From Nitzschia sp. DOCU1 (lineage: Eukaryota > Bacillariophyta > Bacillariophyceae > Bacillariales > Bacillariaceae), in assembly GCA_951394045.1 (NCBI GenBank), contig OX595985.1, positions 4,960,001 to 5,024,000 on the forward strand: 64,000 bases of DNA. Direction: 5' to 3'. The notes beneath the pieces are model-generated. The model had not been told where the DNA came from. It did no database searches and was given only the letters and a program-made list of their open reading frames with translations. Positions 11,822 to 57,759 of this stretch are shown here, in pieces (position 1 is the first letter of the stretch; each line of letters opens with the position of its first letter). The position numbers and the translations under genes are program-made.

Positions 11822-11888
11822 TTAAATGAAGGTATCCTAAGTAGAAAGCATGTTAAAGGTTGTACATCTTCTACATACATGTTTTGGC
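11822..11888 (+). repeat. Left terminal inverted repeat of the TTAA element
   Basis: This 67-bp repeat begins TTAAATGAAGG and ends ATGTTTTGGC. It is identical to the reverse complement of 12866-12932. Confidence 0.9.
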
Positions 11889-25900: not shown

Positions 25901-26190
25901 CACAAAGCGCTCGTCACACCTCCGCATTCCATTGAGTCAACAATATCCATGACTTCCCAGACTAACTTTTTGGGGGAACACCCCCTCCTCGACGGCTCGG
26001 ACCAAGACTAAAACTTTTCAGGAATTTGACCATGGCATTGACAGAAATCTTGAAATCTTTACTAGGCTATGAAATTGCTCCAGTAGAAATAACTATAGAA
26101 TCAAAATCCTTGCTATTCAGTTATGTATAATTGAGTAAAGTTTTGCCCACCACCACCCCCCTCTCCAGGGGACCACTGAATTTAGCGCCA

Positions 26191-28600: not shown

Positions 28601-28770
28601 GGTTGACAATGCAATGCGATGCGAATGTGTTTGCGACGACGAAAATGGAAGACGCTCATCGGGATCTTGGCGGGAGACTTGCTCGGATCGGACCGTTTCG
28701 ACGGGCACGCCGGCGTGGTTTTGAACTCTGGGTGGGACGTCACGACGGAGCGGTCGTGACGTCGAATGAT

Positions 28771-28868
28771 GGCGAATAAGTGCCTTTATTTGCGGAGGTG
28801 AGCTAGACTCGGTATTGATTCTACAGCCCTAAATACGTACCCATCGCAAATAAAGGCCTTTATTTGCG
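28771..28868. promoter_or_regulatory. Paired palindromes of the right Crypton
   Basis: These mirror the left copy: the degenerate palindrome is at 28771-28794 and the perfect 24-bp palindrome at 28845-28868. The latter is identical to the left copy. Confidence 0.6.
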
Positions 28869-28937
28869 TTAGAATTGAGACTTGAGGTCTAAATCGCGCG
28901 GTTTCTGCGCCCAGGATTTTAGACTCAGCTCCCTATA

Positions 28938-36516: not shown

Positions 36517-37039
36517 GAGCTCGCGTACAGAATTTTTCGAGGCACTACCAATTTACCCTGTAATACTGATCATTTTCGAGTGTGCTACGCGCAATGAGTT
36601 GTGGATGCTGAGGTTGTTCGATGGTGTTCGCGTTCGTTTGTGTTTGTGTCCGTTTGCGTCTATGTTAATCTACTTATGAAATGTACTTGATTAACTAGAC
36701 TAAGGTACTGAATAGAATTCTATTCCATGATTGGCTGAGTACTCCCACTTGTTGCAATGATACATGTTGAGCTTGTGGGAGGGTGTTTGTTTGTTAGTGC
36801 CAATTTCTTTGTATTTGTGAATACTAATTGATTGAGTAGACTAATAGAATTCTATTCCATGAGTGCGACAGGCAACAATGGTAGGTATTGAGATTGTCCC
36901 AGGGTGTTCGTTCATTTGCTTGATATTTTTCATCTATGAAACTTAGTAATTGATTAAGTAGATTAATGAAATGTCTGAAAGACGTACCCAGCATGCGGCT
37001 ATTAAAGCACGCAAGGTTGCGTGCACCTTCTATTCGTAA
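36517..37039. other. Upstream region with short repeats
   Basis: AGAATTCTATTCCATGA occurs twice (about 36714 and 36846), each after a similar ATTGA(T)TAAGTAGA-like phrase. From about 36970 the sequence matches a dispersed repeat (ACGTACCCAGCATGCGG) also found at 51650. No gene. Confidence 0.45.
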
Positions 37040-37190
37040 ACAAAACGAATGGGTGAGTTCCCAATTTCAGGAATTAAGCTTGGGATCTCAAAAACCACAA
37101 AACCACTTGGATGCATCTCCTTAGCACTTCCTGTTGAAGAAACCTGCTGTTTGCCTTCCCCAACTCAATGTGCCTGTAGGCATGTACCTC
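37040..37190 (-). pseudogene. Fragment of the 585-residue orphan gene
   Basis: This stretch resembles 57372-57533, inside the 56002-57759 gene. Shared blocks are GTTCCCAATCT-like, GGAATTAAGCT, GATGCATCTCCTTA, GAAACCTGCTGTT and CATGTACCTCACTAACGC. Several indels break the frame. It runs directly into the tandem array, whose unit continues the same homology. Confidence 0.6.
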
Positions 37191-37500
37191 ACTAACGCAC
37201 GCGGGCGGCGGCAAAGGCAAGGGCATCCTACTGGCATAGTACAGGACTGCATTACTAACGTGCGCGGAGCGGCGGCAAAAGGCGAGGGCGTCCTTTTGGC
37301 ATAGTACAGGACTGCATCACTAACGCGCGCGGGGCGGCGGCAAAGGCGAGGGGGTCCTACTGGCATAGTACAGGACTGCATCACTAACGAGCGCGGGTGG
37401 CGGCAAAGGCAAGGGCATCCTATTGTCATCGTACAGGACTGCATCACTAACGCGCGCGGGCGGTGGCAAAGGCAAGGGCGTCCTACTGGCATAGTACAGA
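37191..37500 (+). repeat. Tandem array, five units of 63-65 bp
   Basis: ACTAACG marks unit starts at 37191, 37254, 37319, 37383 and 37446. Each unit contains a GC-rich GGCGGCGGCAAAGGC part and ends CCTACTGGCATAGTACAGGA. The unit resembles the poly-proline coding segment of the gene at 56002-57759 (about 57530-57610). The same array occurs in opposite orientation at 50676-50839. Confidence 0.8.
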
Positions 37501-37594
37501 TCTGCAGGATCTGAAGATTTTGGTAATAGAGGGTCGTCTTGGAAAACTTATATTGTTGGCATACAGTCTGGTGGTAATCAACAAATTCATCCTC

Positions 37595-38450: not shown

Positions 38451-39656
38451 TTAAACCAGATCACCACCATTGTCATTGCTTTCATCATCATCGTCATCGT
38501 CATCATCGTTAGGATTGACATTGTTGTTGTGGTTGTTGTTATTACTATCAACTTGTATTTGGCGTCTTTGATTCTGTCCAGAAGGGGTGTATCCAATGCG
38601 TAGGAAAGAGAAAGCCTCGGATAGAATTAGTTCATCACCTGCCGAGGGATAAAGATATGATAAACGAACTGTAACATCAGTGTTCACCACTTTTTCCTTT
38701 TCATTTGCAGCATCAGCAACTTCTCCAAGTTTGAACCATCCAACAATAGTCCAGCCTCCATGGTTGTTAATGTATTGCACCATGTCAGATATTTTGGAAC
38801 GGTGAGTTCTTTTGACAGCAAGCATTTCATCATCAATTTCAAAGATTGAGACATAATCATCGAAATTGTGGAAGAAGATTTTTGTAGTCTGAAGAGAACG
38901 AAAGCCACTGGTGGTGTAGGAATTACCGAATCCAAATTTGGGCGGAATGGGAAACTCAATATCAAAGGAATAGACAAAAGCTTTGTCTGGTCCATTGTGC
39001 AAGCAAGTGCACTCACCCCGAGGTTTTTGCCTATCACATTGCATACCACTGCATGAAACATCAAATGGCATTGTTGGACGGTGAAGATGAATACTTTGAT
39101 TCTTTAAGACAAAATAATTTGTCTCGGCAGGCACAGTAGGCAGGCGCATCTTGGATGAAGTACTTCTCGTAGAGTCTTCCGTGAGCTTGAGGGGAATGAG
39201 AGTACGATCCTTGAAATTAACAATAGGAAGAGTTTTTCCAATGCTTTGTGTTGTTAGGTTTGGTTCAAACAGATAGAAATCTTTGCCAACAAAAGTTGTT
39301 CCATGTAAATGTCTCAGAAGATTTGTTGTTTCTTGAACATTTTGTGTCATTATGGCACAACAATGAGGCGGATTAGATAGATCGGCACAAAGGAAGAAAC
39401 GATTATAGCTCTTCACTGTTTGAGTTGTTTTCATCCTTTTGTTGCCAGTAGTTGAGTAATTGTTGATCGTTGCATTTCTGCTGCTTCCACCCATTGTGCA
39501 GGACAAAATCTTCAGATGCAATACCTTATCCTCTAGTGCATTTGCATGATCTCTGTTCTGAAAATACACAAGAGGCACAATTTGTGTCTGAGGGCTCAGC
39601 ACTTCTCCAGGTCCCTCCTCTGGAACTAAATTCAAATCTACGAAAGATGTTGCCAT
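38451..39656 (-). CDS. 401-residue ORF beside the GIY-YIG Rep-helicase; possible OB-fold ssDNA-binding protein
   Basis: ATG 39656 opens MATSFVDLNLVPEEG. A glycine/asparagine-rich stretch is followed by FFLCADLSNPPHCCAIMTQN and LLRHLHGTTFVGKDFYLFEP, spaced like strands of an OB fold. Near residue 215 a CSGMQCDRQKPRGECTCLH cluster could bind zinc, as in large RPA subunits. The tail is poly-Asn and poly-Asp. Helitrons of several lineages carry RPA-like genes, so an ssDNA-binding helper for the neighbouring RepHel is plausible, but the fold is inferred only from residue pattern. Confidence 0.4.
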   Translation of the reverse strand: MATSFVDLNLVPEEGPGEVLSPQTQIVPLVYFQNRDHANALEDKVLHLKILSCTMGGSSRNATINNYSTTGNKRMKTTQTVKSYNRFFLCADLSNPPHCCAIMTQNVQETTNLLRHLHGTTFVGKDFYLFEPNLTTQSIGKTLPIVNFKDRTLIPLKLTEDSTRSTSSKMRLPTVPAETNYFVLKNQSIHLHRPTMPFDVSCSGMQCDRQKPRGECTCLHNGPDKAFVYSFDIEFPIPPKFGFGNSYTTSGFRSLQTTKIFFHNFDDYVSIFEIDDEMLAVKRTHRSKISDMVQYINNHGGWTIVGWFKLGEVADAANEKEKVVNTDVTVRLSYLYPSAGDELILSEAFSFLRIGYTPSGQNQRRQIQVDSNNNNHNNNVNPNDDDDDDDDESNDNGGDLV

Positions 39657-40349
39657 TGTTCTGTATTGCAAATTATGACAGCTGCAGTAACAACTTTGTC
39701 AGCATGACATGGGCAAAGATTATGAAAAAAATTGTTTTTGTTGCGTTTGAATTCAAAGTATAATCCGATTGTGGCTGTTGCGTTCTTGTGGCTGGAGATT
39801 AGAATGATAGATGTCAATGACCCACATTGAGTGGAAGAGATTTGGCAAAGTTGTTGGCAAGTGGTTGCAGTCGTGGTTGCTTCTGTTATGTTGACAGTTT
39901 GGTTTCTTGATTGGCATTAGTCAATTTGTTCTCTTGAATTCTCAAATCCATGTTCTGGAATGTAATGATTGTGGTACAAGAGAAGGGCTAGGGATTGCCT
40001 CAGAGCGCATGGCATGGCATTGGTCGTTTCTGGAAGAACACGTGGCTAAAAGGGAGGGCGGAGCCTTTAAGAGCGGGAAGGAGGAAAGGGGGAGTCTCAA
40101 GGTCGCAAAAGTACTCGTTTCTGCAGGATTTCATTTTGGACGTCTCCGCGTCCTCCGCTGTTGCGAAGTAAGCATGTGCTCCTTACTGCGCCATTTTGCT
40201 TTGGATTCCAACCGTGCGCATGGGCCTTGAGTTTTGAATGGCAGCTTCCGTAGTAATAATAAGGCATTTGGCTAATGAAGTAGTCCTATCTTAAGAATTG
40301 TAATTATGTATATTCATATAGTTGTAAATATTAGTATATATTGCATTGT
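39657..40349. other. Non-coding gap inside the putative element
   Basis: Nothing recognisable. The part from 39980 to 40230 is richer in G and C than its surroundings and has an open frame without an ATG near its start; I do not call it. Confidence 0.4.
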
Positions 40350-41207
40350 TCAAATGTTGATATTCTCACAATAACCCAATTCATTCATTGCAATGGCTGG
40401 AAACGGTTCCGAAAAAAGCGCATTCGCTAGTTTCTCATTCAAGGAATAGAATTGCTTGTGTAAGTGACGGGTTTGGACCATCAGCTTTGTAATTTTGAGT
40501 ACATCTTCATCAAGAAGAAACCAATCAAGAGAAGAAGGCACAGGAGGAGTTTTATCAAAGTCTGGTGGAACAGTGATGAAATGATCTGAGTTATTACTCG
40601 TCATTTGTTCGCCATATGAATTCTGGTAAGGGTGACTCTTTCGCCAATTATTAAGGAAAGTGGCAACACACTGAGCCATTCGGTTGCACTGATGACTGGT
40701 GAAACCCATAGGTTGGAAACAAACAATATAACATTTCTTGTATTGAGTTTTGCCCTGTGTAGTTTTGTAAATAGGAACATTATCTTGTTTGGAAACTCTT
40801 CTTGGTGCAATCGCAATTACTGGTATTTCTTTCAAAAGAGATGATCGTTCCTCATTAGGCTGATCAGTAGAAGTAATTAATTTGATCAAAGGATGAAGGA
40901 AAGCTTCATCATTGCCCTGATTAACTTCAATTAGAGCAATAAGATTTGAAGAAGTTCGGATAACAGAAACTTCTGCACCCAATGACATGAAGTTTTTGGG
41001 TACAATGTTCTGACGGAATATTTGTGACCACTGTGTAAAGGGCACCACCCTGTTATCTTCTGCAGTTGATTTAAATCTTTTGTCAGGAATGGGAGTAACA
41101 ACGTTACTCTCTACATCAGTAGTATTGCTTTTTGAAGCATCTTGTGAAAGTCGAGGGTCAATATGATCCTGGTTATGATGAAAATCAGCCATGATCAAAC
41201 GTTTCAT
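40350..41207 (-). CDS. Orphan 285-residue protein
   Basis: ATG 41207 opens MKRLIMADFHHNQDHIDP. A disordered Ser/Asp-rich N-terminus is followed by a folded region (VIRTSSNLIALIEVNQGNDEAF; KKCYIVCFQPMGFTSHQ). The C-terminal part is helical (KLMVQTRHLHKQFYSLNEKLANALF). No catalytic motif is recognised. It has the same strand and low-GC character as the adjacent Helitron ORFs, so it is likely part of the same element. Confidence 0.45.
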   Translation of the reverse strand: MKRLIMADFHHNQDHIDPRLSQDASKSNTTDVESNVVTPIPDKRFKSTAEDNRVVPFTQWSQIFRQNIVPKNFMSLGAEVSVIRTSSNLIALIEVNQGNDEAFLHPLIKLITSTDQPNEERSSLLKEIPVIAIAPRRVSKQDNVPIYKTTQGKTQYKKCYIVCFQPMGFTSHQCNRMAQCVATFLNNWRKSHPYQNSYGEQMTSNNSDHFITVPPDFDKTPPVPSSLDWFLLDEDVLKITKLMVQTRHLHKQFYSLNEKLANALFSEPFPAIAMNELGYCENINI

Positions 41208-41446
41208 GATTTCTTTTTATGACCTGAAGCAAATGGTATGCTATGAGTGGTGTTTTCTTATCTGATGACTTTCTACATTGAAAAAAAAACCAATTTTTTA
41301 GGACTTTAGTTTCTAGTGAAACTATACAAGATTATCATAAAACTTCTATTAACTTAGTTTTGCTATGCTGAACACAAATTTATGTCAATGCTTACGCTAT
41401 AGAACTGAACAAGCATAGAACTATATTGCTATCTAGTTTTTGCAGC

Positions 41447-41480
41447 AGCGCTTTTTTCCACTGAGTGGAAAAAAGACGCT
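41447..41480. terminator. Strong hairpin in the intergenic gap
   Basis: AGCG-CTTTTTTCCA and TGGAAAAAAG-(A)-CGCT form a stem of about 14 bp around CTGAG. It lies between two minus-strand ORFs. It could be an RNA-end signal or an element end; the role is unknown. Confidence 0.4.
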
Positions 41481-41557
41481 TTCATTAGTCTCATGCCAAG
41501 AATCTAATCACTTTCGGAAAATGTTCATTTCAATTATTTGGATACAACATTTATGCT

Positions 41558-42066
41558 TTAGTAGTATTTTTGGGGTACTAACATGTTTTCATCTTTTTTT
41601 GAGCTGCGTTCAATAAACTTGAGAACTCTAGGGGCATTTCTGTTGGCAGAATGGACTTCATTTCCTTCTTCGTTAGAAGCTTTCTTTGTGTTCTTGATTA
41701 ACGTGGTATCAACATCAATTGATCTTCTTTTAGTATTGGTTGGGCGATCAGGAGGTTGACCAACTTGATGGTTGAAAGAAGGCGTGGAATAGCTGTGGTC
41801 ACAATGACTGCAATGGGTTCCTTGAATGTGGAAAGTTATGGCTGGTTGAATGACGTTGGGTTGATGCATAACTGGTAGTACTTCATGATATTTGTTTTCA
41901 TATGTGGATTGATCAATAATATCATCTTCTGTTCTGGAATTTGTTTTCCTTTCTATTTCTGTACTACAAATGTGTGTTAAAATTCCATGCATGGTCAACT
42001 TTGTCTTTCCACAATCAAAGCATCCAAAGCATGGAGCCAATGATCCTGTGTTGTTAAGACGCTGGG
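41558..42066 (-). CDS. ORF with a C2H2-like zinc site, start uncertain
   Basis: The frame is open from after the TGA near 42068 to 41558 (about 168 codons), but the first ATG comes only after the cysteine cluster. The opening segment CFGCFDCGKTKLTMHGILTHIC has spaced Cys and His residues like a C2H2 finger. Further on GTHCSHCDHSYS adds a second Cys/His group. The C-terminus is basic and Asn-rich. The missing start suggests an upstream exon or decay. Strand and composition match the neighbouring element ORFs. Confidence 0.35.
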
Positions 42067-42112
42067 TTCATGGTCATGTGAGATGTGGTCTCAAAAATAT
42101 TCGTTGGAGTGG

Positions 42113-42304
42113 TTAATGGCTTACATTGGGATGTTTTGTTTGGACAAAGATAGTGGTTGGCTCAGCATCTTTGTTCAAACAGACATCATTTGCCCATGAA
42201 GTTTCGTCGACTAGAACTAAGCCATGATAACGCAATTTATCATTAATGGCTTTGCTCCTAGCTTTAGCAAGAGTAAACTGCAGTTGATGAATATTGATCG
42301 ACAT
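42113..42304 (-). CDS. Short ORF, possibly an exon
   Basis: From ATG 42304 it encodes 63 residues (MSINIHQLQFTLAKARSKAIN) with a helical, basic start. It lies just upstream of the zinc-site ORF on the same strand and might be its 5' exon, but no splice pair was established. Confidence 0.25.
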   Translation of the reverse strand: MSINIHQLQFTLAKARSKAINDKLRYHGLVLVDETSWANDVCLNKDAEPTTIFVQTKHPNVSH

Positions 42305-42433
42305 GTCAGGTAGTGTAATTTTATGGCAATGAGATATATGGGATGTTGGAATGCTCAAGAAAGGACTTCCAAATGTGATGAATTATTGAAATCAATGCGC
42401 GACGGCAAGGCCCACTTTCTTGGAAGAAAGCCA

Positions 42434-42587
42434 GGGTTGGTACTACCTTACCAAATAACAAGGGGGGTTCATCTTTGCTACTACTACCTGCATTGTCATG
42501 ATGTTATGTGACTGCCTGTTGTACAGTTGGATAGTGTGTACGGCCCCGTCAATCCATTCCTAGTAGAGGGTGGGTTGTTGTCGTTGT
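42434..42587 (-). pseudogene. Captured fragment of the acidic gene at 54160-54645
   Basis: About 154 bp match 54291-54445 closely. Shared blocks include GGTTGGTACTACCTTACCAAA, GTCATGATG and CCATTCCTAGTAGAGGGTGG. The copy has several C-to-T and G-to-A differences and no long frame. It lies downstream of the giant Rep-helicase ORF. Neighbouring gene sequence on either side of the match does not extend. Confidence 0.7.
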
Positions 42588-42877
42588 ACCAGGAGGTGCT
42601 GCAACAACTTCCACAAGAAACAATCTACCCATGAGCTCCCGCCTATGATTGTCATTAGTTCCTTCACCAACCTTTACTAATCAGTCAGAAGGTCAACTTG
42701 CTGCCTTATGATTATGTGGCACATTCCTTGGCGCCATGGGCTTTATCTAACTACCATGCTACTTGCAAGATAAGCAATGAAAACTTGCATAAGATAATGT
42801 TGACAAAGTTGTTACTGAGCCATATTAGAATAATTTGAATGAACAATTCTCTTTTCTATTATTTGTATGTATAATGG

Positions 42878-45800
42878 TTATTGTGTCGTGTTAATGTGAC
42901 CACAACGTATCACTCGAAGGCACATTCGTCTGGTGCGATTCCATTCTTCTGCCATTTCATGGCCAATATGAAGTAGTGCTTCTGCATCTAACGGTTGTTG
43001 GCGCCGTCCTCTGGAGCGTGCTCTTAATTTCCAAATACTTTCGAATGTCTGTCTATTTCTTTTGCTTGTAAACCCAATCACAAATGCATAGACGGCCCAT
43101 GGTTGAAGAAATCGTTGCTTTGTCACAGCTGAACCGCCATCTCCGCTATTATGTTGAGTTAACCGATGACGAATATTTTTGGTCTCACCAATGTACATCA
43201 CATTAATATCCCTTGTGGAAATCAATTCATAAACAACACCATGATTTTCTGGTGGTAATTGAGCATCACAAGGGCGGAACATGCAAGGATTTTGGAGAAT
43301 TGGTAGACTGTCATTTTCCTCACTGGTAAGTTGAGACAAAAGCTGACGAATGTAAGGTAGAAATCGATTTGTTCTTTGGAGCACTTGCAATAAATGTTCT
43401 GACACTTCAGATGGATCTCCAACGAAGTAAATATCTTTTGCTTTTCGTGTTCGACTCAACAGTACCACTACTTGCGCAGCTTCCCAAAGATTGTAGTCAT
43501 ATCCATCATCTTTATTTGTGACCTGAGTGACAACAGAAGATAAGGTTGAACCCATACTGGAATGAATAGTAGCAGCAATTCTGGGTTTCAATCCATATTG
43601 TGTTCGTCTGGCTTGGACACCTCGGAATACAGTTTCGTTTTGTGATGTTGTGTAAGAAACTTGGACTTTTTTCCAGCCTCTTTCGGTTAGACCATTTTCA
43701 TTGAAAAAATCCATTGAAGGAAAATCCTTACATCCAGGAGGGCCAGCCCAGACACTTATAGGTTCCTTGCTGTGAATGTGCTCCTCTTCCAATTCCAATA
43801 AAATAGCCAATTGACCCTGTTGGAAGTTCCTATCATTGTGGCAAAATTCAAAGCGTGCATTTTTGTAAAAAACAAGCTGTTTTTTTCTTTTCTGTTGTCT
43901 TGAAAGCTTTCGAACAATTGGAAGAGCAGCTGGGTGCCAATTTCCACCTGTGGTTGACTCTTCATCTGTTGCCAGAGATATGACAAGAGGAATTGACATA
44001 CGGCGAAGCTGCTCAAGCATTTGCTTTTCCACATGAAGACAGGGTTCGCGTCTACCAAAAATGAACACTGCATCTTCTGGGATTCGCGAATCAACCAAAC
44101 TTGATAGAAACGTGCAGCTTGTAGAAAGAAGAAATGAGAATCGATCAATATCTTCAGGGGACCAGGAGGTATTTCTGGTTAACGAACAAATTTCTCGAAG
44201 TGCAGCACAGTTTGCTGCTCGTACCGATTCAAGAAGCTCATGGAATTTGAATTCAGCAATCATGTTGATGGACATCATGATTGGCGTTCCCTGCCAAGGC
44301 ATGAGTTGCAATATATCCATTGAAGAAATTATGAACATTCCTCCCATAAAGACTCCACTGTGCTTGATATATCTTGCAATAATGTCAAGGGTTGCCAAGA
44401 GTTCAGCGTACATCAACCCCAACTCATCAATATACAAATAATCCAAACATTGCCAAAAAAAGAGAAGTTGTGGATTCCGATATATAGCTGCCAAAGCATT
44501 TTCGGCCATTCTTCCTGGTGTTAAATTTCCACCAGATGCTTTCATGGAAGTCAGGCGATGAACGTGAAGACCGCCAAGCTGTTTTGCACGATCTGCAACA
44601 ATGCTGGTGGAAACACCATTCAGTCCTTTACACATAGCGTAAAGTGATGCCATTTCGCATACTGTTGTTTTTCCAGTTCCTGGACCACCAACAACAACAA
44701 TATTCTTGTGGTTTTTAGTGGGATCAATGTATGCATCCATTTCTTTCTTCATTGCCAATAAAGTTTGTTTCTGCTCCTGATAGGATGCAACGTTCTGATC
44801 AAAAGAGGGAGGAGGAGGATAAAAACCGGTAGTATCGATACTTGTAGGAAATTGTCTTGCATGGAGAATCGCTTCCTTGTCTGGCAAAATGTTGTTGAGG
44901 CCACAAGCAACAAGATCGTTCCAAAGAACGTCAATGAACAAACGTCGCTGCTCTATTTGAAATCTTTCCGTTGTTGACATAGCTTCCTCCACCATATGAG
45001 TGTGTAAAACAGATGGAAGTGGTGGTGTTTCAACCAAATCATTTGCAAGTAACACTTCTTTCAATGTAGAGTATGCCAAGCATAAATTCCGGTCAAATTG
45101 GAAAGTTGATCCAGGTTGAATGGAGAGAAATTCCCGCACGTACCGGCTGGTTAGGTTTAGAAGTGATGTCTCTCCTTGAACTGGATCAAATAAGCCTGCA
45201 TGGATAAAGGCAGAGCGTAGGTTCCCAGTTAGCATCAGTTCATATTCTGTTTCAAAGCTGCCCATTGCTAGAAGAAGGTGAACCATAAAACGGTTTCTGT
45301 TTTTGGGATAGACAGGAGTGTGCCAAATGATGGGTAAAGCTTCACTTGATTTTTCTGACAGAAATCTTTTTTCGATATCCTTGAAATCTTTTTGTGCTCG
45401 TAAAAGTGCAGGAAAACGGATTGACACAGTCCTTGTAACAAAAATATTGTATAAGCGCTGGATTTTCAACAAAAGGGCGAGCATTTCCTGTTTTCGAACA
45501 TTGCTTCCAAAATGAGAAGCATTTGTGTTTCTTGCATAGAACAGAACTTCCCCAATTGCTCCCCTTCGAAGTCTTAGTTTTGTATTAAAACCATCAAGCC
45601 ATTCACTTTCTTCAAGGCGACTTTTGATATGAGTCTTCACGTATTGCAAAGAAGATTGTGGGTCAAATAAGGGCGTCACAGTTTGCCGCTCAAACCAACG
45701 CAAATAGTATTTTTGTTGCCGTATAAAACGTAATTCAGGAGGACGCATGCTGAAATATGTGGTCACATCAGTTGAAAGTGGTGCACGCAATTCATCTTGA

Positions 45801-48800
45801 ATTACAGTGAGTTGAAAAGTGGTGAATAATCTTGAAGCTGGAAAGCCTGGTATTTCAGCCCGAGCAGTTTGTCCTGTTACTGCCATCATGGCCTGTATGT
45901 CATGGGGACGTCTTCCGGACCCCATTACACGGTTAAAAACAGCAGCACGATATTCCCGAGCACAAGTTGGCATACGGATGAATTGGATTGTACTTGTTAC
46001 CAGTGAATCACCTTGAATAACTGTGAGACACTCCATTTGTGTCAGAGCTCGTCCATGACCATGACGAGTTTTGTTCTTTGTTTTTTCTGCAAGTCTCTTC
46101 CAAGAGGTAATCTTAGTGTTATGGAGTGCCGTGTATTCCCCGTTCACATTCAGGCTTCCAGGAGTAATACCTTCTGATTCCTCTCTTTGGGGAGTTGGAG
46201 GTGTCAATCTTACAATTGCGACTTCATCCAATTCAGAAACATATTTTGCCAAGTATGCAGAAACACTGTACCCTGTAGTGAATTGCAAGTTTTGAGCACT
46301 TGGAAAACAAATGAAAAGTTTTCCATTTGTAGGAGAAAATTTGGAATCAGTGTTTGCACTTCGAGGAATGTGTCGTTCTGCTTGTAGCAGTTTTTCAGTC
46401 ATTGTATCGCCATCCATCATTGATAAAAGTCGCAGCACTTCACAGCATTCTTTAGAGTGCTGAACTGGCAATGGTTGAATGGAATGATTTTGGGGTTGAT
46501 CCGTTAGCCAAAAATTGCTGGGCACCTTACAAACAAAGTGAGTTTCTCCATTGCTGTCTATACGTGGCACCTGACACCTATCATGACATTGATGGGCAAG
46601 AAACTTCTCTGCATCCCACAAAATTTCTTGAAGCTGCAAAGAAGAGGATATGAAACCTTCTTCCTTAAGCTGGGCAATTTCATTGTAGTGTATAAGATCT
46701 GCCAAACAGCCTCGTATTTTGTATAGAACAGCCTTCAGTCCTTCTGGAGTAGTGATATCCATTTTTGTGCGAAGGATAGCGTGAATATGGCTTGGATTTC
46801 CTTGTTTTTCTTGGAATTCGTGACGCCACCATGCCCATTCAATTTCATGCAAAGGCGCTTCCACAGAATATACAATATATTTCATCCATAGAGTGCTTAC
46901 TTCATTCCAGCTCCTTAGGACATATGGGGCTGCTGACTCGCGCAAAAGAAAACGGGCTTCATCCATGGTAACACTATACTTTCTGGAAACTTCTTCAAGG
47001 GCTATACTGGATGTTACCCATTCTCTGAGAACTCGTAATCCCCGGCATGTCTTTTGATTGCATGATTGAGTAAAAAAATAGTGGGGAGGCCTGTGTCCAA
47101 TGAGAGCAGATAGTTTGTGAACATTGGTGGCATTTTCTGAAGAATCTCCATACAGTTCACCATTCTCATTGCTCTGAAATGCAATGCCATCTTGTCCTTG
47201 CCGGTCTGCAAATCCACGGTGAAGAATTAATCTGCTGTCATTGCCACGGAGCCCCAGGTTAACCAAGATATCAAATGTCAAGAATTGATAACGAGGATCT
47301 GTACTGCATAGGAGCGAAGGGTCCAAAATACGATTTCGTCCATGTTGTCGCATTGAAGCTATACCATACTGAGCCAATGTTTTTTCGTCAGTCCACAAAG
47401 CAGTTGGTAAAGCTCCAAGAATGGACCCATCACCAGTATGGAAATAAAAAATATCTGGAAATAGTAAGCCTTCTGCATACACCAAAGGAACAGTCTGTCC
47501 TTTAGATCTTGATACAATTCTTTCGTAGAAGTTTGAATTTTTTTTTCTCATTCGAAGCTTTGTGTTCCTTCTGATAAGTAGATGACCTTGCATGTTTAAG
47601 AGCACGTGAAGTGGAGAAGAAATAACATCAGCAGGTCCATGTAAATGTACACCCATTGGTTGGCGAGCAGTATTGGTTGTGGGAATCATCTCATTGCTGT
47701 CGTTAGAGCCAAAACTGTCATCATCATTGTATTCTTCGCCATATAGATCAGTAGCAAGTTCATGAGCCTCAATTGGTCCATAAGCTGCATAATTTATGTC
47801 CTCTCTAGTGCAGTTGCCCATGATGATATCACTGTCATGAAGAATTTCTTGTTCTTCACCAATGATACAATCATTTTCTGAAATAAAAACCACTTTACTC
47901 GAGTGGTTTTGTTCCTTCACCATTTCTTCCCAATGTTCCTTACAGATTTGGATTCGACAATTCTTTTCGGGACAAATATAGAGAGGAATATTGGTGCAAA
48001 CCATTTCCTCTTCTCTGTGAAACAAGTTTTTGATTACACAAGAAGCCTCATCACCCACTGGTTTGTTGAAATATGCATTAGTGACCAATGCAACCTTGTG
48101 TCTACCACAATAACATGTACTTTGCCCCCCTAAACACTTCAAATAGCGGCGGCAAAGTTCTTCTTGTCGATCTCCACTTTGTCGGCAATATATTGCAACT
48201 TGAAGATTTTCCAAATCATTTGGTAGTACCGTGGTTCGTCCAAATTGAGCCATGCTGCCTGGTTGACACCACCATGCTTGTCCTGGATGACGAGCAAAAA
48301 TAGATACTTCAGCACTGTCGATTAAGGACGGGAGTCCATCAGATCCAGCTTCAAGAACACCAAACACCAAAGCACGGATTTCCCAGAAAGGATTATCAGT
48401 CAAGATAGTGGAGGGTCTGACAACTATAACAATGTTACTTTCACATTGTTCTTCCATTTCCCATTCTCTGTGCATAACTTTGATGCCATCAATTGAATGA
48501 AAAAGATTCAACAGCTGGCTCACATATGAATCTCCAAATAATTCCAACTTTTCAATGGCTTTGCGTCGAGGCGTTTCAGGATAGAATATTTTCTTGTGTT
48601 TTTGCCTGTGTCGTCTCCCAGGAAGATTCAGACTTTTGGCAGCCAAAACTAGCCACCAGCCATACCACATCTGGTTATCTTTAACATTGTTCACAAGCAC
48701 AGACCAAAATTCGTCAACCACTGTCATAATACCAAGGAGAAGAAACCCAACAAAACTCTTTGTTGGGTCAGATATTCGGACAAATCGTTCTCCAAAACCA

Positions 48801-50101
48801 TCATACGGATGAATCCGTAGCTGGCGACATGGCCAAGGTGGATCAAAAAGAATTTCTTCAGTAGCTCCATGTTCATCGAAAACCAATAATACTTGCGATT
48901 TTGCTTCATATGACTGTTCTTGAAGCTCAATAGAATCCAAAAGATTGACATAAGTTGAAGCTCTCAATTCCTTTCTATCAGGCAGATCGATGAATGAATT
49001 TTCTGCTACCATCAACTTGCGATCGATAATATTGGCGGGAACATAGGCCATGTCATATGGATTCTTACTCAATTGTCGAACATATTCACGGATATCACTC
49101 CTTCCTTTTATTGATAAAGAATCTCGTAGCAAAGCCAAAGCATTCCCATGATGAAGGTTCCCCCTGTTTATAATGTAGGATGAATCAATACCATCATAAC
49201 CACCCTGTAAAACTCCAGTTTGGTATGTATCAGAAAAATTGTGTAGCTTAGTTTCTCGCAAAGTCCGGCTCCTGCACACAGCTGGGGATAGTTGATTAGA
49301 GTTGTTGGTAAACAAAGTGCCAGTAATTGTTGAAGGTGGAAAGACATATCTCTCTTTGGATTGAATTGTATGGTTCCTGCATGATAAAATTTGAGCACCT
49401 TCTTCACCAATGCAAATAGTAGGTTGACACAAAAATTTGTCATTTTCCAGAATACAAACTGAGCTTGGAAAATCAGGCCGAATACAATCTGTCCACTTCC
49501 TTGAATTTGCCGTTCCAGATTGATAGCAGTCAAAAATCCAGTTGCTGTAACTGAAAAAAAAATCTTCCAGTGGTAGTTTATTGCATCTGTGGAGAAACTC
49601 GCTACAGCCCCAAGGACATCTAACTTCAGGATAAGCTAAATGGCTATCCATTTGTTTCGCCAGTTCCATCCACCGTAGTTCAGAAATGGTTTGTTGAAAT
49701 GCATTTGCTTCTAAAGTCATGTCCGAGAATAGAGGTGGTGGATTATGCATAGAAATGGGGCTTTGATGAAGAACAGTAGCCGATGATAACCACCATTCCC
49801 GCCATTTAGCAGGGATTAAAGACCAGCGATCACTGAGGGATGTAGATTGAAGAAAATCAAATTTACTTCCATGAGAAAGGAAAGCCCAAACCATTGATGG
49901 CCAGTAGTCCTTTGGGTGAGGTTTTCCGGTACTCAACAAATAGCGCTCACAGTTGGCACATAGTGATATTACTGTAACGGGTCCATCAATTACAGGTAGT
50001 TGACAATATTTCTTGCCACGCTTTCGTTTCAGAATATCTGATGAATGGACAAAAAGGGGCACTTGATGCCGTCTGCAATTGCAACAATGCTCGTTTGTCA
50101 T
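42878..50101 (-). CDS. Giant Rep-helicase with C-terminal GIY-YIG nuclease
   Basis: One uninterrupted intronless frame from ATG 50101 encodes 2407 residues, longer than most RepHel proteins. The N-terminus pairs CCNC with CANC, likely zinc-binding. The Rep domain has an HUH box in GNPSHIHAILRT near residue 1105 and paired tyrosines in GYSVSAYLAKYVSE near 1285. A Pif1-like helicase follows with VVGGPGTGKTT near 1805, YLYIDELG, ISSMDILQL, RIAATIHSSMGSTLSS and VVLLSRTR. The last 120 residues form a GIY-YIG endonuclease: VVYELIS, VMYIGETKNIRHRLTQHN, WAVYAFVIGF and a glutamate in TFESIWKLR. Such a protein could nick, unwind and cut at the target. All key motifs look intact. It is probably the motor of a Helitron-like element. 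Confidence 0.85.
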   Translation of the reverse strand: MTNEHCCNCRRHQVPLFVHSSDILKRKRGKKYCQLPVIDGPVTVISLCANCERYLLSTGKPHPKDYWPSMVWAFLSHGSKFDFLQSTSLSDRWSLIPAKWREWWLSSATVLHQSPISMHNPPPLFSDMTLEANAFQQTISELRWMELAKQMDSHLAYPEVRCPWGCSEFLHRCNKLPLEDFFFSYSNWIFDCYQSGTANSRKWTDCIRPDFPSSVCILENDKFLCQPTICIGEEGAQILSCRNHTIQSKERYVFPPSTITGTLFTNNSNQLSPAVCRSRTLRETKLHNFSDTYQTGVLQGGYDGIDSSYIINRGNLHHGNALALLRDSLSIKGRSDIREYVRQLSKNPYDMAYVPANIIDRKLMVAENSFIDLPDRKELRASTYVNLLDSIELQEQSYEAKSQVLLVFDEHGATEEILFDPPWPCRQLRIHPYDGFGERFVRISDPTKSFVGFLLLGIMTVVDEFWSVLVNNVKDNQMWYGWWLVLAAKSLNLPGRRHRQKHKKIFYPETPRRKAIEKLELFGDSYVSQLLNLFHSIDGIKVMHREWEMEEQCESNIVIVVRPSTILTDNPFWEIRALVFGVLEAGSDGLPSLIDSAEVSIFARHPGQAWWCQPGSMAQFGRTTVLPNDLENLQVAIYCRQSGDRQEELCRRYLKCLGGQSTCYCGRHKVALVTNAYFNKPVGDEASCVIKNLFHREEEMVCTNIPLYICPEKNCRIQICKEHWEEMVKEQNHSSKVVFISENDCIIGEEQEILHDSDIIMGNCTREDINYAAYGPIEAHELATDLYGEEYNDDDSFGSNDSNEMIPTTNTARQPMGVHLHGPADVISSPLHVLLNMQGHLLIRRNTKLRMRKKNSNFYERIVSRSKGQTVPLVYAEGLLFPDIFYFHTGDGSILGALPTALWTDEKTLAQYGIASMRQHGRNRILDPSLLCSTDPRYQFLTFDILVNLGLRGNDSRLILHRGFADRQGQDGIAFQSNENGELYGDSSENATNVHKLSALIGHRPPHYFFTQSCNQKTCRGLRVLREWVTSSIALEEVSRKYSVTMDEARFLLRESAAPYVLRSWNEVSTLWMKYIVYSVEAPLHEIEWAWWRHEFQEKQGNPSHIHAILRTKMDITTPEGLKAVLYKIRGCLADLIHYNEIAQLKEEGFISSSLQLQEILWDAEKFLAHQCHDRCQVPRIDSNGETHFVCKVPSNFWLTDQPQNHSIQPLPVQHSKECCEVLRLLSMMDGDTMTEKLLQAERHIPRSANTDSKFSPTNGKLFICFPSAQNLQFTTGYSVSAYLAKYVSELDEVAIVRLTPPTPQREESEGITPGSLNVNGEYTALHNTKITSWKRLAEKTKNKTRHGHGRALTQMECLTVIQGDSLVTSTIQFIRMPTCAREYRAAVFNRVMGSGRRPHDIQAMMAVTGQTARAEIPGFPASRLFTTFQLTVIQDELRAPLSTDVTTYFSMRPPELRFIRQQKYYLRWFERQTVTPLFDPQSSLQYVKTHIKSRLEESEWLDGFNTKLRLRRGAIGEVLFYARNTNASHFGSNVRKQEMLALLLKIQRLYNIFVTRTVSIRFPALLRAQKDFKDIEKRFLSEKSSEALPIIWHTPVYPKNRNRFMVHLLLAMGSFETEYELMLTGNLRSAFIHAGLFDPVQGETSLLNLTSRYVREFLSIQPGSTFQFDRNLCLAYSTLKEVLLANDLVETPPLPSVLHTHMVEEAMSTTERFQIEQRRLFIDVLWNDLVACGLNNILPDKEAILHARQFPTSIDTTGFYPPPPSFDQNVASYQEQKQTLLAMKKEMDAYIDPTKNHKNIVVVGGPGTGKTTVCEMASLYAMCKGLNGVSTSIVADRAKQLGGLHVHRLTSMKASGGNLTPGRMAENALAAIYRNPQLLFFWQCLDYLYIDELGLMYAELLATLDIIARYIKHSGVFMGGMFIISSMDILQLMPWQGTPIMMSINMIAEFKFHELLESVRAANCAALREICSLTRNTSWSPEDIDRFSFLLSTSCTFLSSLVDSRIPEDAVFIFGRREPCLHVEKQMLEQLRRMSIPLVISLATDEESTTGGNWHPAALPIVRKLSRQQKRKKQLVFYKNARFEFCHNDRNFQQGQLAILLELEEEHIHSKEPISVWAGPPGCKDFPSMDFFNENGLTERGWKKVQVSYTTSQNETVFRGVQARRTQYGLKPRIAATIHSSMGSTLSSVVTQVTNKDDGYDYNLWEAAQVVVLLSRTRKAKDIYFVGDPSEVSEHLLQVLQRTNRFLPYIRQLLSQLTSEENDSLPILQNPCMFRPCDAQLPPENHGVVYELISTRDINVMYIGETKNIRHRLTQHNSGDGGSAVTKQRFLQPWAVYAFVIGFTSKRNRQTFESIWKLRARSRGRRQQPLDAEALLHIGHEMAEEWNRTRRMCLRVIRCGHINTTQ

Positions 50102-50307
50102 AGCTTCACTTTGCAATTTGTGAGCATCACCAAAACAACTTACTGTCTAAAATACTACTTGAGAAAAAAAGCAATTATTATGGGAACTTACAATGGCATT
50201 GGTACTACACACTTAGATAATTCCTACTTAGAGCCATATCAACATCAACCACCTAATATTATAACCATTCATAAAATTACGTGCTAACTCTGAACACTAT
50301 TATGGTA

Positions 50308-50556
50308 TTACACTACAAACGAATAGAAACTGAACGCCTGACGGCAAAGAGGGCACGTGGGGCATTTCCTCTGCCAGGTATCCAAACAGCACCTATGAAA
50401 CTCATGCACACAACAATCAGGATTCACTATGACCTGCGCAATACAGTCCATTTGCTCATAACAAATTGAACACTCTGGGTAGTCCAATGGCTCAACATAT
50501 AGTAGCTCTGCTTGTGTTCCACTCCTGCGCACTTCTTCTTTTTCCACAACGGTCAT
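50308..50556 (-). CDS. RING-H2 finger protein, 82 residues
   Basis: ATG 50556 opens MTVVEKEEVRRSG. Zinc ligands follow the RING-H2 order: C-S-I-C, then CCVHEFHRCCLDTW, then CPLC. RING proteins act as E3 ubiquitin ligases that recruit an E2 enzyme. No membrane or substrate domain is present, so it is a bare RING. It lies just upstream of the giant Rep-helicase on the same strand and inside the right tandem array, so it may be part of that element. Confidence 0.75.
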   Translation of the reverse strand: MTVVEKEEVRRSGTQAELLYVEPLDYPECSICYEQMDCIAQVIVNPDCCVHEFHRCCLDTWQRKCPTCPLCRQAFSFYSFVV

Positions 50557-50675
50557 CCTATCAATTCTTGGCTGCTAAAAACAATGTAAGCCACATGGCT
50601 TGCATGTCGAATGTATGCCTTGTTAAACGCAACAATTCTAAATTTATTCCTTAGATGCTATTACGTCACTCACAG

Positions 50676-50839
50676 CCCCGCGCCCGTTAGTGATGCAGTC
50701 CTGTACTATGCCAGTAGGACGCCCTCGCCTTTGCCGCCGCCCTGTGCACGTTAATGATGCAGTCCTATACTATGCCAGTAGGACGCCCTCGCCTTTGCCG
50801 CCGCCCCGCGTGCATTAGTAATGCAGTCCTGTACTATGG
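50676..50839 (-). repeat. Tandem array, about 2.5 units, inverted copy of the 63-65 bp repeat
   Basis: GATGCAGTCCTGTACTATG and CCAGTAGGACGCCC recur about every 64 bp. This is the reverse complement of the array at 37191-37500. With the left array it brackets 37501-50675. Confidence 0.8.
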
Positions 50840-50884
50840 TTAGCAACAATGCAACAACAGTGCTCACCAATCTGCCATGACAAA

Positions 50885-51322
50885 TTACACACGATCCTTC
50901 AAAATCAAGTTAAAAGCTTTTTTACAGGCTGGGCAGTTTGAATGCCCCCTGTTCCACCACATATTGAACCAGGTAACAAAACAACCTTGATGAAACTCAT
51001 GCTCGCACACGTCTAGTTGAACAACAGTGTTTACCAGTCTGCAGTGACAAATTGAGCATGGTGCTCTGATTGTAGTAGCCAATTCTGCAGCAACAAATTC
51101 CACATCTAAAATAAGGTTGAATGCTTGATCACAGACTGGGCAGATTGAACGTCCCTGGTTCCACCACATACGGAACCAAGTACGGAAACAACGCTGATGA
51201 AACTCATGCTCACAGTTATCCAATTTAACAACAGTGTTTGCCAATCTGCAGTTACAAATTGCACATGGTGCTCTGGTTGTGGTGGATAATTGAATTACTG
51301 TAGAGTCTTGGTGTGCATCCAT
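50885..51322 (-). CDS. Tandem double RING-H2 protein
   Basis: ATG 51322 gives 145 residues made of two similar RING-H2 units of about 65 residues. Each has APCAICNCRL or APCSICHCRL, then CEHEFHQ.CF, then CPVC or CPAC. The duplication is visible in DNA as well as protein. Ubiquitin-ligase activity is likely from the fold. Two RINGs without a spacer domain are unusual. It lies just outside the right tandem array. Confidence 0.75.
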   Translation of the reverse strand: MDAHQDSTVIQLSTTTRAPCAICNCRLANTVVKLDNCEHEFHQRCFRTWFRMWWNQGRSICPVCDQAFNLILDVEFVAAELATTIRAPCSICHCRLVNTVVQLDVCEHEFHQGCFVTWFNMWWNRGHSNCPACKKAFNLILKDRV

Positions 51323-51649
51323 CTTTCAAAGTTATGACCAATCCAGTTTCTCTCATGATAATGGCAAGGGTGAATTTAAGATTGTGTCACTCTCCTGTAC
51401 TACAGTTTTCATTTAAGATGCATGATTACTACCTAGCACGCTATTACTCCATTCTCTGTTATCAACAGTAGATAATGTCATCACCACAGAGCTCTTTGTT
51501 TCTCGCATGCTCGTACATTCCCAGTTACATTGTTCATATCAGGACTAAATCTCTTTGTGGATTGCTAATAGCTCCACGTAGCTAGTTGCTCATCATCCGA
51601 AATACAAAAGACTGTTTCACAATTGTGAAAATACAATATTAAATAAAAT

Positions 51650-51889
51650 GTCCGAAGGACGTACCCAGCATGCGGGTTTTTAGAGCGCACAAGGCCATGC
51701 ATGCCTTCCACGCATCAACAAAATAAATGGGCGCGGAAGTGGAAGTGGCGGAAGCGGCGGCAAGGCGTACCTTCCACGCGTCAAAAAAATAAATGGGCGC
51801 AGAAGCGAAAGCAAAAGCGGCAAGGGGACTGAATTAAAACTTGGAAACTGGCATAGCAGCGTGCTGGGATATTCTCTTTAAAAAGAGTA
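51650..51889 (+). repeat. Dispersed repeat copy
   Basis: It begins with ACGTACCCAGCATGCGGG, then AGCGCACAAGG and CCTTCCACGCATCAA, and ends GGAAACTGGCATAGCAGCGTGCTGGGATA. Related copies are at about 36970-37035 and 52725-52865. It has internal GGAAGTGGCGG-type subrepeats. There is no coding content, and it may be a short non-autonomous element. Confidence 0.55.
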
Positions 51890-52624
51890 TCAATCACTAT
51901 TGGTGGAAGTTTGTGACTGTTCATCATCAGATGATTCACTTGTTAGCATGTCATTGTAACTCATACAAGGATCATAGGGAAAAGATTCCAATGGAGAATC
52001 ATCATCAAGGATAGAATGGACATCATCGTCTTCTGGTCCTTCCAATGAATGATTCATGGCAAAACTATATTCAGTACGGAAGTAGGATCTTCCTCGTACA
52101 TCCGTACGTGTACCAGACAGTAGTTGATTTTGAGTGCGACTTTGGATAATTTGTCTGCCTGCATAGGGGTGAACACGTATATTGGTAACAGGGAGCAGAG
52201 GGGGCATGTCATCATCAATATCATCATCTGAATCAGACTCAAGATATAGCTGTCCATTAGTAAGCCTATGAAGAGGAGAATAGTCCTCATCCACTTCACT
52301 ACGACCAAGAGGATCTCCATACTCAACAGCATCACCTAGGAAATCCTCATAGTAATTGCGTAGCATTTCTCTGATAGGGAGCAGAGGGGGCATGTCATCA
52401 TCAGTATCATCATCTGAATCAGACTCAAGATATAGCTGTCCATTAGTAAGCCTATGAAGAAGAGAATAGTCCTCATCCACTTCACTACGACCAAGAGGAT
52501 CTCCATACTCAACAGCATCACCTAGGAAATCCTCGTAGTAATTGCGTAGCATTTCTCTGATATTTGAAAGGGATGCCAGGTCATCATTACATTCTTTCAT
52601 GGGGTAGACAGTGTTGGTCAACAT
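51890..52624 (-). CDS. Acidic protein with a 62-residue tandem duplication
   Basis: ATG 52624 gives 244 residues. A 186-bp unit is repeated almost identically (about 52191-52376 and 52377-52562), encoding IREMLRNYYEDFLGDAVEYG, RSEVDEDY and a run of Asp/Ser (SDSDDD.DDDMPPLLP). The rest is acidic and serine-rich. No domain is recognised. Near-identity of the two DNA units points to a recent in-frame duplication, so the gene is probably still under constraint. It lies among RING genes. Confidence 0.5.
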   Translation of the reverse strand: MLTNTVYPMKECNDDLASLSNIREMLRNYYEDFLGDAVEYGDPLGRSEVDEDYSLLHRLTNGQLYLESDSDDDTDDDMPPLLPIREMLRNYYEDFLGDAVEYGDPLGRSEVDEDYSPLHRLTNGQLYLESDSDDDIDDDMPPLLPVTNIRVHPYAGRQIIQSRTQNQLLSGTRTDVRGRSYFRTEYSFAMNHSLEGPEDDDVHSILDDDSPLESFPYDPCMSYNDMLTSESSDDEQSQTSTNSD

Positions 52625-52986: not shown

Positions 52987-53202
52987 ATGAATGCGGAACA
53001 AGATCACCCTGCAATCAATTTGACTGGAATTTATAAACCGTGTCTAATCTGCCATGTCAGAATGACGCAAGACGACATTGTTCAACCTGACACTTGCAGA
53101 CATGATTTTCATCATGAATGCTTGCGACTTTGGCAAATGAGGCACCCTAACTGCCCCGTGTGTCATGAGGAATTCAACTACATTTGCTTTGTAGTCGACT
53201 AA
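52987..53202 (+). CDS. RING-H2 finger protein, 71 residues
   Basis: ATG 52987 opens MNAEQDHPAINLTG. The ligands CLIC, CRHDFHHECLRLW and CPVC make a complete RING-H2. It is related in size and layout to the two RING ORFs at 50308 and 50885 but lies on the opposite strand. Likely a minimal E3 ligase module. Confidence 0.75.
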   Translation: MNAEQDHPAINLTGIYKPCLICHVRMTQDDIVQPDTCRHDFHHECLRLWQMRHPNCPVCHEEFNYICFVVD

Positions 53203-54159: not shown

Positions 54160-54645
54160 CTAAGTAGAAAATATCGAGTCGTCATCGCTCGTAAGGAAAA
54201 TGTCGTCGTAGCATTCCTCCTCGTAAGGCAGCTCATGTCCATCGTCCGAGTCGGTAGGGTAGTCCTCCCAGTAATCGTGGTTCGGAGCAAGGGTTGGTAC
54301 TACCTTACCAAAGAACACGGGGGATTCGTCTTCGCTGCTGCTACCTGCGTCGTCATGATGCTTCGTGACTGCCTGTAGTACAGTCGGATAGTGTGTACGA
54401 CCCCGTCGATCCATTCCTAGTAGAGGGTGGGTTGTTGTCGTTGTAGGGATCGTTGTAGGAATCGTCATACCTAGTACTAAAGCGTGAGTTGTTGTGGTTG
54501 ATTTTGCATCGTCGCCCTTGCGATTCTTGTCGTCAGGAAAATCTTCGAATGATTCATCATCCGACTCTTCCATTAAAGGAAAACCATCGTAGTTTTTGGG
54601 AAAGTCATCGAATGATTCATCATCAAGGGTGGAGAGGGAGTTCAT
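54160..54645 (-). CDS. Acidic orphan protein, 161 residues
   Basis: ATG 54645 opens MNSLSTLDDESFDDFP. The ends are acidic with repeated SDDESFEDFPDD-like units, and the middle is threonine-rich (PTTIPTTTTTHPLLG). No fold is recognised and it is probably disordered. A 154-bp part of it is duplicated inside the Helitron-like element at 42434-42587, which suggests capture of this gene or a relative. Confidence 0.4.
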   Translation of the reverse strand: MNSLSTLDDESFDDFPKNYDGFPLMEESDDESFEDFPDDKNRKGDDAKSTTTTHALVLGMTIPTTIPTTTTTHPLLGMDRRGRTHYPTVLQAVTKHHDDAGSSSEDESPVFFGKVVPTLAPNHDYWEDYPTDSDDGHELPYEEECYDDIFLTSDDDSIFST

Positions 54646-56001: not shown

Positions 56002-57759
56002 TTATTTATGTATGTTCTGTTCTTCAGCAAATCTCGCCTCAAGCTCAACAATTTGCCGCTGTAGTTCCAACTTGTCCAGCTCTAGTTGAGACACCTTCAA
56101 TTGAAGTTGGGCAATCTCGTCCTTCAGTTCGTACACAATGTCTTTGTGTTCTTCGTCGGCCCTTTCTTCAAACACACCCATTGCACAGCTGATATGAAAG
56201 CTTTTCTCTCCCTCGTCATCAGTACTGCAAGTGAATGTACAGGTACTCGTAGATCCCATGTCGTCATCATGACACTCAGTACGAATGGAAGAGTTCGGAT
56301 TGAAGTCAGAGAATGTCATAGGGGTACCAGTAGATTCTTCGTCAGCCGCGGCATAAGTAATTTCGAGAGGGGGAGGGGCTTCGAGAGCGGGAAGGGCTTG
56401 GGCAATAGCTCCGATAAGCCCAGAATTCAGAGCCTTCATTTCGCTTGCGAATTCCGAGCCTTTCTTCTCTCTCCGTTGATTGCCCACCCATCTGTCGAAC
56501 TTGTTCTCCGATTTCAAGCCATAAGCCCCTGTCTCTTTACACAGGGCGCAGCGTGCATGCAATACAAGGTGGCGCAAGCATACGTAGAGCTTACGTTTAT
56601 TGAGATTCGACTTCAGATGTTCAACATTCCCGAATTCAAATATGGTGTCCTTGGTCCGCTTGGCGGAAGTAAAGAGAGCCCTCATACAATTCTCAATGTC
56701 AGTTGCCTCTTCGTCAAAGGTGTCGAACTTTTGTCCATCGAACATAGGATCGTCCGGTTGGACAGGTCTCAATTTCACGCCACCTGACCACTGTTTAAGC
56801 TGTTGAAGTTCGTCAGAAGAGCTGGGAATTGCCACGTAATTACCGGTTTCTTCGTCATCAAACTCAAGGCGGGGGTAAGAACCGGTAAGTCGACTAAGGC
56901 TCCTAAAAGCATCCGCCAGAGAAGTGGTCTTCTTGAAGAATGCTCGTACGAGAATCACCAGTCTGCTCATGTGCGTCATCTTATCATCGTATTCCAAATA
57001 AGGAAACCGAAGTTTAAACGCCATCAAGGCAATAATGAAGAACTCCAGGTGCTGTTCTCCCTTGTCCTCGTCATTCCGCCTACTGTTACCGGTAGTCTCG
57101 ACCTTACGCTTTTCCGTCACCAGATCATGAATCTTGTTGCATATAGAACTCCAATAGCCGTTCGTCTCCCCACGTTTGCTGGCCCCTATATTCAAAAATG
57201 TCACGACAGTCTTTCCAGTCTTGGTGTCTACTCTGGCACGAAATTTCTTCAACTTTAATACGTCAGCGAATGTCACACTATTACCGCCCTCTTGCTTAAG
57301 GGCCCAAATGAAGTAGATTGCGTGCGTGGCAACATTGTCAAAGTTCGCAGAAATCCTGGCAAGAGTGAGAACCCTAACTGCCTCTGTGGGTTCCCAATCT
57401 AAGGAATTAAGCTCAGGATCTCCGAAGAACACAACATCGTTCGGATGCATCTCCTTATCCCTTTCCGTCGGAGAAACCTGCTGTTCTCCTTCCCACCGAT
57501 CAGAGTGCCTACTGTGCGCATGTACCTCACTAACGCGCGGGGGCGGGGGCGGCAAAGGCGGGGGCGGGGGCGGCAAAGGAGAAAGCGTCCTACTGGCACC
57601 GTACAGGACATCGCGAACAACCGACGAATTCGCAGATTCCTCAAAATCGCACCGTTTGTTAATCAAAGCTTCCGCATATGCCGCGCACTCCGCATACAAC
57701 ATGTCGGAGTAGTCGTCGCTGTCGACGCTTTCGTCGCCTGCACGAATTTGTTTCGCCAT
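56002..57759 (-). CDS. Orphan 585-residue protein with poly-proline tract and C-terminal coiled coil
   Basis: ATG 57759 opens MAKQIRAGDESVDSDD. Residues about 60-75 form a poly-proline tract. The central part (about 120-440) looks globular with no recognised motif except a C-x2-C-containing HARCALCKETGAYG. The last 40 residues are a coiled coil (LKDEIAQLQLKVSQLELDKLELQRQ quoted in part: LQLKVSQLELDKLELQ). The poly-proline region is the apparent source of the 63-65 bp satellite unit at 37191 and 50676. The gene stands between two direct-repeat blocks and may be carried by them. Confidence 0.5.
   Translation of the reverse strand: MAKQIRAGDESVDSDDYSDMLYAECAAYAEALINKRCDFEESANSSVVRDVLYGASRTLSPLPPPPPPLPPPPPRVSEVHAHSRHSDRWEGEQQVSPTERDKEMHPNDVVFFGDPELNSLDWEPTEAVRVLTLARISANFDNVATHAIYFIWALKQEGGNSVTFADVLKLKKFRARVDTKTGKTVVTFLNIGASKRGETNGYWSSICNKIHDLVTEKRKVETTGNSRRNDEDKGEQHLEFFIIALMAFKLRFPYLEYDDKMTHMSRLVILVRAFFKKTTSLADAFRSLSRLTGSYPRLEFDDEETGNYVAIPSSSDELQQLKQWSGGVKLRPVQPDDPMFDGQKFDTFDEEATDIENCMRALFTSAKRTKDTIFEFGNVEHLKSNLNKRKLYVCLRHLVLHARCALCKETGAYGLKSENKFDRWVGNQRREKKGSEFASEMKALNSGLIGAIAQALPALEAPPPLEITYAAADEESTGTPMTFSDFNPNSSIRTECHDDDMGSTSTCTFTCSTDDEGEKSFHISCAMGVFEERADEEHKDIVYELKDEIAQLQLKVSQLELDKLELQRQIVELEARFAEEQNIHK

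Follow-up and report, generated by a model that had tools for sequence, protein, structure and literature searches.

A probable Helitron-like transposase with a C-terminal SLX1-like GIY-YIG domain in the diatom Nitzschia sp.

Helitrons are described as moving through a nick made by one tyrosine, strand displacement, a second nick, strand transfer and a single-stranded loop at the target (PMC6213432). The handling of the second strand at donor and target is an open step of this model. Papers that touch on both Helitrons and GIY-YIG deal with homing nucleases, Penelope elements, Terminons or a viral element of the Mariner type (PMC3627910, PMC6431247, PMC12910113, PMC5718144, PMC5753468, PMC8848866). 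The GIY-YIG protein SLX1 cuts branched DNA close to the branch and, according to published descriptions, has no activity in the absence of SLX4 (PMC6902002, PMC8287910). Here, we describe an open reading frame (ORF) in 64 kb of DNA from Nitzschia sp. DOCU1 (contig OX595985.1, positions 4,960,001 to 5,024,000), a stretch that we call the window and whose coordinates are used throughout. Comparisons of sequence and structure revealed a two-tyrosine Rep nuclease of the HUH type, a Pif1 helicase and, at the C-terminus, an SLX1-like GIY-YIG nuclease domain in one polypeptide. Judged from sequence and modelled structure, this protein is very probably the transposase of a Helitron-like element that is autonomous or was so until recently.

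The ORF lies on the minus strand, as do all its domains, and was listed at 42878-50116 with 2412 residues from a TTG at 50116, which is residue 1 in our numbering. Residue 6 (50101) is the first ATG, and from there the ORF spans 42878-50101 with 2407 residues. Within 40001-52000 the longest stop-free run was 2422 codons, whereas 30 mononucleotide shuffles of this interval never exceeded 148. A zinc-type cysteine/histidine cluster (residues 670-725, 47942-48109) is conserved: C670, H673, C707, C715, C720 and C725 were each present in 90% or more of the 20 sequences compared. The Rep region with its following linker (residues ~988-1671, 45104-47155) includes the HUH motif H1110-I-H1112 (46781-46789) and the paired tyrosines Y1288 and Y1292 of YLAKY (46241-46255). 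Downstream in the same protein is a Pif1-type helicase of superfamily 1B (residues ~1768-2266, 43319-44815), with the Walker A motif VVGGPGTGKT within 44666-44695. Such a Rep followed by such a helicase is the arrangement of the Helitron superfamily. An original prediction, made from the letters of the DNA, had proposed one uninterrupted 2407-residue protein with zinc-type cysteine pairs and HUH, YLAKY, Walker A and GIY-YIG motifs. The frame agreed with the ORF listing from the first ATG, the cysteine/histidine cluster proved conserved, and the quoted motifs are present.

In the Pfam scan at E<=10, neither Helitron_like_N nor any other known Rep domain matched the window protein, and the PIF1 match (residues 1801-1941, 1.3e-4, 22.1 bits) was below the cut-off of 25.9. 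Of the three HMMER matches that had been proposed as a check, only that to GIY-YIG exceeded its cut-off. Among the relatives, five members out of 20 had a Helitron_like_N match at E<=0.1. In P0030, P0033 and P0034 the match was above the cut-off, and in P0032 slightly under it. The best fold match of the modelled Rep region was a Helitron transposase, Helraiser (PDB 7lcc, residues 495-1333). A scan with NCBIfam contributed nothing further.

The GIY-YIG domain (residues 2293-2368, 43013-43240) was matched by Pfam at 5e-10 with 40 bits against a cut-off of 22.6. The pattern of this superfamily consists of GIY...YIG with a conserved arginine, a histidine or tyrosine, and a glutamate. Y2308, G2310, R2318, H2322 and E2359 were present in all 32 members with an intact domain, and Y2296 in 31 of them. 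When the family profile was compared with PDB, SLX1 chains (4xlg) came first at 1.2e-13 and UPF0213 next at 8.4e-5. With the single domain as query, the only matches below 0.1 were to five SLX1 sequences, at 2.9e-6 to 5.7e-4. The runs aligned with SLX1 were YIGxTxNxxxRLxQHN and then PW...GF, and sequence comparison placed the domain in the SLX1 type. Because SLX1 chains are the best solved relatives and share these motif runs, the comparison argues for an SLX1-like source. The identification of the domain rests on sequence, since helicase chains filled the fold-search list of the model. No Pfam match follows residue 2368 and the protein ends at 2412, so there is no zinc finger after GIY-YIG. 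The original prediction was thus right about the C-terminal GIY-YIG domain, with the Pfam and SLX1 matches in agreement. Its link to Penelope elements found no support: the best solved relatives are SLX1 chains and the Pfam scan of the protein revealed no reverse transcriptase, although no direct comparison with Penelope sequences was made.

We assembled 50 sequences, i.e. the window protein and proteins from three database searches. The search with residues 1000-2412 returned 19 proteins of 28-98% identity, 15 of which had 2206-3038 residues. According to a precomputed table, 18 of the 19 have GIY-YIG, and the exception, P0016, ends before the helicase. P0001, also among the 19, is 98% identical to the window protein and comes from a different contig, of 9,091 bases. 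When the most distant of these matches was used as query, 17 proteins were returned at identities down to 24%; 15 had not been seen in the first search, and 13 of these have GIY-YIG. The third search, from P0033, scored the 7981 candidates with most words in common and yielded at least 16 proteins (15 new); precomputed GIY-YIG was present in none among the matches listed. All 50 sequences keep both HUH histidines and both tyrosines. An intact GIY-YIG is present in 32 and a degenerate one in nine (P0033, P0036-P0039, P0041-P0044), and the last nine stop no later than the end of the helicase; P0048 and P0049, which end near the expected start of GIY-YIG, may truly lack it. None of the arginine, histidine and glutamate is left in the degenerate domains, and these members retain HUH, both tyrosines and the helicase lysine. 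The intact-domain profile scored 7.9-29.2 bits on the nine degenerate tails, versus no more than 4.0 bits when the last 210 residues of each of 30 proteins were shuffled, 600 times in total. OTU proteases occur in some relatives, mainly in the degenerate branch. In addition, P0015, a relative outside the window, has a Ulp1-type protease (Peptidase_C48, 1e-9) in the same protein, just as other relatives carry OTU. The fusion of a Helitron-type Rep-helicase to GIY-YIG, as originally predicted, is supported as real and conserved, and its domain order recurs in predicted proteins on other contigs. The prediction had also inferred recent activity. An intact frame and a 98%-identical protein on a separate contig are in line with this, and the activity itself is only an inference.

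We also built a tree from the Rep and helicase columns, excluding those of GIY-YIG, by a quick method with Shimodaira-Hasegawa-like approximate likelihood ratio test (SH-aLRT) support only. It comprised 44 of 51 rows; left out as incomplete or not comparable were the second Helitron of the window and P0016, P0032, P0040, P0045, P0046 and P0047. On this unrooted tree the intact members formed one side of a branch, which amounts to one change (SH-aLRT 100). P0030 and P0034, both intact, were the nearest rows outside the group with degenerate members. Therefore, the simplest reading is an ancestral nuclease whose catalytic residues were later lost within one branch, although the tree is unrooted and the branch of P0034 long. 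The existence of the degenerate branch means that catalytic activity can be lost. Among 31 intact members, pairwise distances in GIY-YIG were correlated with those in Rep (r = 0.76) and helicase (r = 0.78), and none of 2000 permutations was as high. Comparatively, the correlation between Rep and helicase was 0.93, above both. With degenerate members included (n = 40), the values were 0.71 (Rep and GIY-YIG), 0.80 (helicase and GIY-YIG) and 0.94 (Rep and helicase).

These results suggest a Helitron lineage with its own helper nuclease. By inference from the family, Rep would nick the element end and stay linked to it through a tyrosine, the helicase would peel the strand off, and the second tyrosine would terminate the strand and join it to the target. 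GIY-YIG might then cut branched DNA at donor or target, the likeliest cut being in the strand that faces the single-stranded loop of the insertion, or at a flap at the donor. After such a cut, repair synthesis could make the insertion double-stranded and host replication would not be awaited. The original prediction had conjectured that the nuclease could change the rolling-circle mechanism by cutting the target or the second strand. As a whole, a Helitron-like transposase with a nuclease role for the added domain is our best explanation, with a probability of about three in four. The specific branch-cutting role is tentative, and we give it somewhat less than even odds. More speculative still is the idea of a deep, widespread 'Rep-Hel-GIY' lineage whose built-in SLX1-type nuclease resolves its own integration or excision intermediates; one polypeptide would then perform both first-strand transfer and second-strand cut, and one branch would have lost the activity and kept the shell. 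R2318 and E2359 are direct test points, and the 32 intact and nine degenerate domains form a natural comparison set.

Of the other explanations, the best is that GIY-YIG serves as a binding or tethering module for branched or end DNA, with incidental catalysis. The nine members that have a recognisable domain without the three catalytic residues, yet keep those of Rep and helicase, fit this. However, mere binding would not need an arginine, histidine and glutamate that are kept in every intact member, and we consider the module unlikely. It is considerably less probable that the protein belongs to a domesticated host gene or is a replication protein of a large DNA virus. In favor of this, element ends were not found in the window, 38-54 kb has a higher AT content than the DNA directly beside it (that of 16-26 kb is nearly as high), and some of its minus-strand ORFs, e.g. 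38451-39671, 40350-41207 and 51890-52624, have no Pfam relatives. However, the closest fold is that of a Helitron transposase, and relatives carry Helitron_like_N and OTU. Furthermore, two peptide patterns matched 20 stretches in IMG/VR contigs and 27 in genome_contigs, and none of either was confirmed. Helitrons are known to take up gene fragments (PMC6431247), and a host SLX1-like exon could have been captured by chance with no role in transposition. Such a passenger would hardly sit, intact or degenerate, at one and the same position in 41 of 50 sequences (the rest stop no later than the helicase end), at identities as low as 28% and 24% across the searches, or diverge in step with Rep and helicase, so we regard it as very improbable. 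For an assembly or gene-prediction artefact joining two genes, which the original prediction had named as a possible refutation, we found no supporting point, and a frame continuous in the DNA together with the presence of the same junction in 31 further predicted proteins, whose sources bear the tags jgi, ena and lgn, makes it scarcely conceivable.

Helitrons have either TC/CTRR ends with a 3' hairpin, as in Helitron1, or asymmetric inverted repeats, as in Helitron2, and make no target duplication; with one copy of the element to compare, the window offered candidates only. Two GC-rich tandem arrays of 63-64 bp (37189-37506 and 50675-50838) flank the ORF in mutually inverted orientation, with pairs 83-95% complementary. 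A unit 80% like those of the arrays was found at 57555-57609, inside ORF 56002-57759, and 37053-37224 is 78% like 57386-57565. The array unit and its flank resemble the proline-rich start of that ORF. Because a similar unit and flank lie there, we read the arrays as a captured gene fragment, copied and amplified, and rejected them as proven element ends. There is also a hairpin-like motif, present at 36971-36986 and 51648-51663, that is reminiscent of Helitron2 5' ends (PMC3627910, PMC5148889). No partner of it was found, and its mismatch-tolerant counts were within those of shuffles (2 versus a mean of 1.1; 5 versus a mean of 2.2). Finding two copies is no test, because the pattern was derived from these two. 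A 160-bp direct repeat (89% alike) lies just downstream of the ORF at 42429-42588 and inside ORF 54160-54645 at 54286-54445.

Directly upstream of the ORF are small RING-finger ORFs (50308-50556 and 50885-51322), and a third small ORF, on the plus strand at 52987-53202, is RING-like by eye. The neighboring ORFs 38454-39656 and 40353-41207 were considered as single-strand-binding proteins, for which there was no support. The window also contains a second, more ordinary Helitron at 20686-25454, with Helitron_like_N (5.4e-12) in ORF 20686-24084 and a weak helicase match (AAA_30, 6.5e-5) at 24054-25454, which overlaps in another frame; 18603-19000 is 67% like its 23830-24231. Comparison of the family's Rep alignment with this Helitron (20686-24081) gave a probability of 0.5 of 100 over 18 P-loop columns, and as the partner was a single sequence and the alignment contained full-length rows, we counted it neither for kinship nor for unrelatedness. 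Two inverted copies of ~3.09 kb (8734-11822 and 25900-28936, 98.2% alike) have NDC10_II matches. Each copy contains a pair of ORFs, read in different frames, whose overlap consists of the same 28 bases (10359-10386 and 27336-27363); one further break is present in the second copy. They are possibly mobile elements with a frameshift or an intron. A reverse-transcriptase ORF and a gene with DUF6824 are also present; as DUF6824 is mostly a diatom domain, it would point to a diatom-like stramenopile as the probable host.

Compared with Helraiser and Helitron1, the window protein has the Rep and helicase fold and order seen in PDB 7lcc, but its Rep sequence is too distant for the Pfam Helitron_like_N model. 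Helraiser is not known to have a third catalytic domain. SLX1, the best solved relative of the GIY-YIG domain, differs in having a C-terminal zinc-finger domain and the partner SLX4 (PMC8287910, PMC4726241), whereas in the window GIY-YIG closes a 2412-residue transposase. Penelope-like elements are likewise mobile elements with a GIY-YIG endonuclease (PMC5753468, PMC8848866), but they carry reverse transcriptase. Terminons of bdelloid rotifers combine GIY-YIG-like and Rep-like genes within one element type (PMC6431247, PMC5718144); here, by contrast, both are in one polypeptide and diverge together. In the accessible parts of the open-licence PMC literature we found no report of GIY-YIG in a Helitron RepHel (Rep-helicase) protein, which agrees with the original prediction that the combination is unfamiliar, although a prior description in subscription papers or Repbase is possible. 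A further parallel is with Helentrons, which have Rep (HUH, two tyrosines), a Pif1 helicase and an extra C-terminal endonuclease (PMC4067079), and from which the OTU proteases found in some of our relatives are also known. Their endonuclease is of the apurinic/apyrimidinic (AP) type and most closely resembles that of CR1 retrotransposons. The Pfam scan at E<=10 listed no AP endonuclease for the window protein, and the SLX1-like GIY-YIG fills that place. As the Helentron enzyme is also C-terminal, two unrelated nucleases have been added at one position. Rolling-circle elements exchange unrelated deubiquitinases in a parallel manner (PMC9741609). A second lineage with a different nuclease fold at the C-terminal place known from Helentrons would argue, in parallel, for the usefulness of an extra cut.
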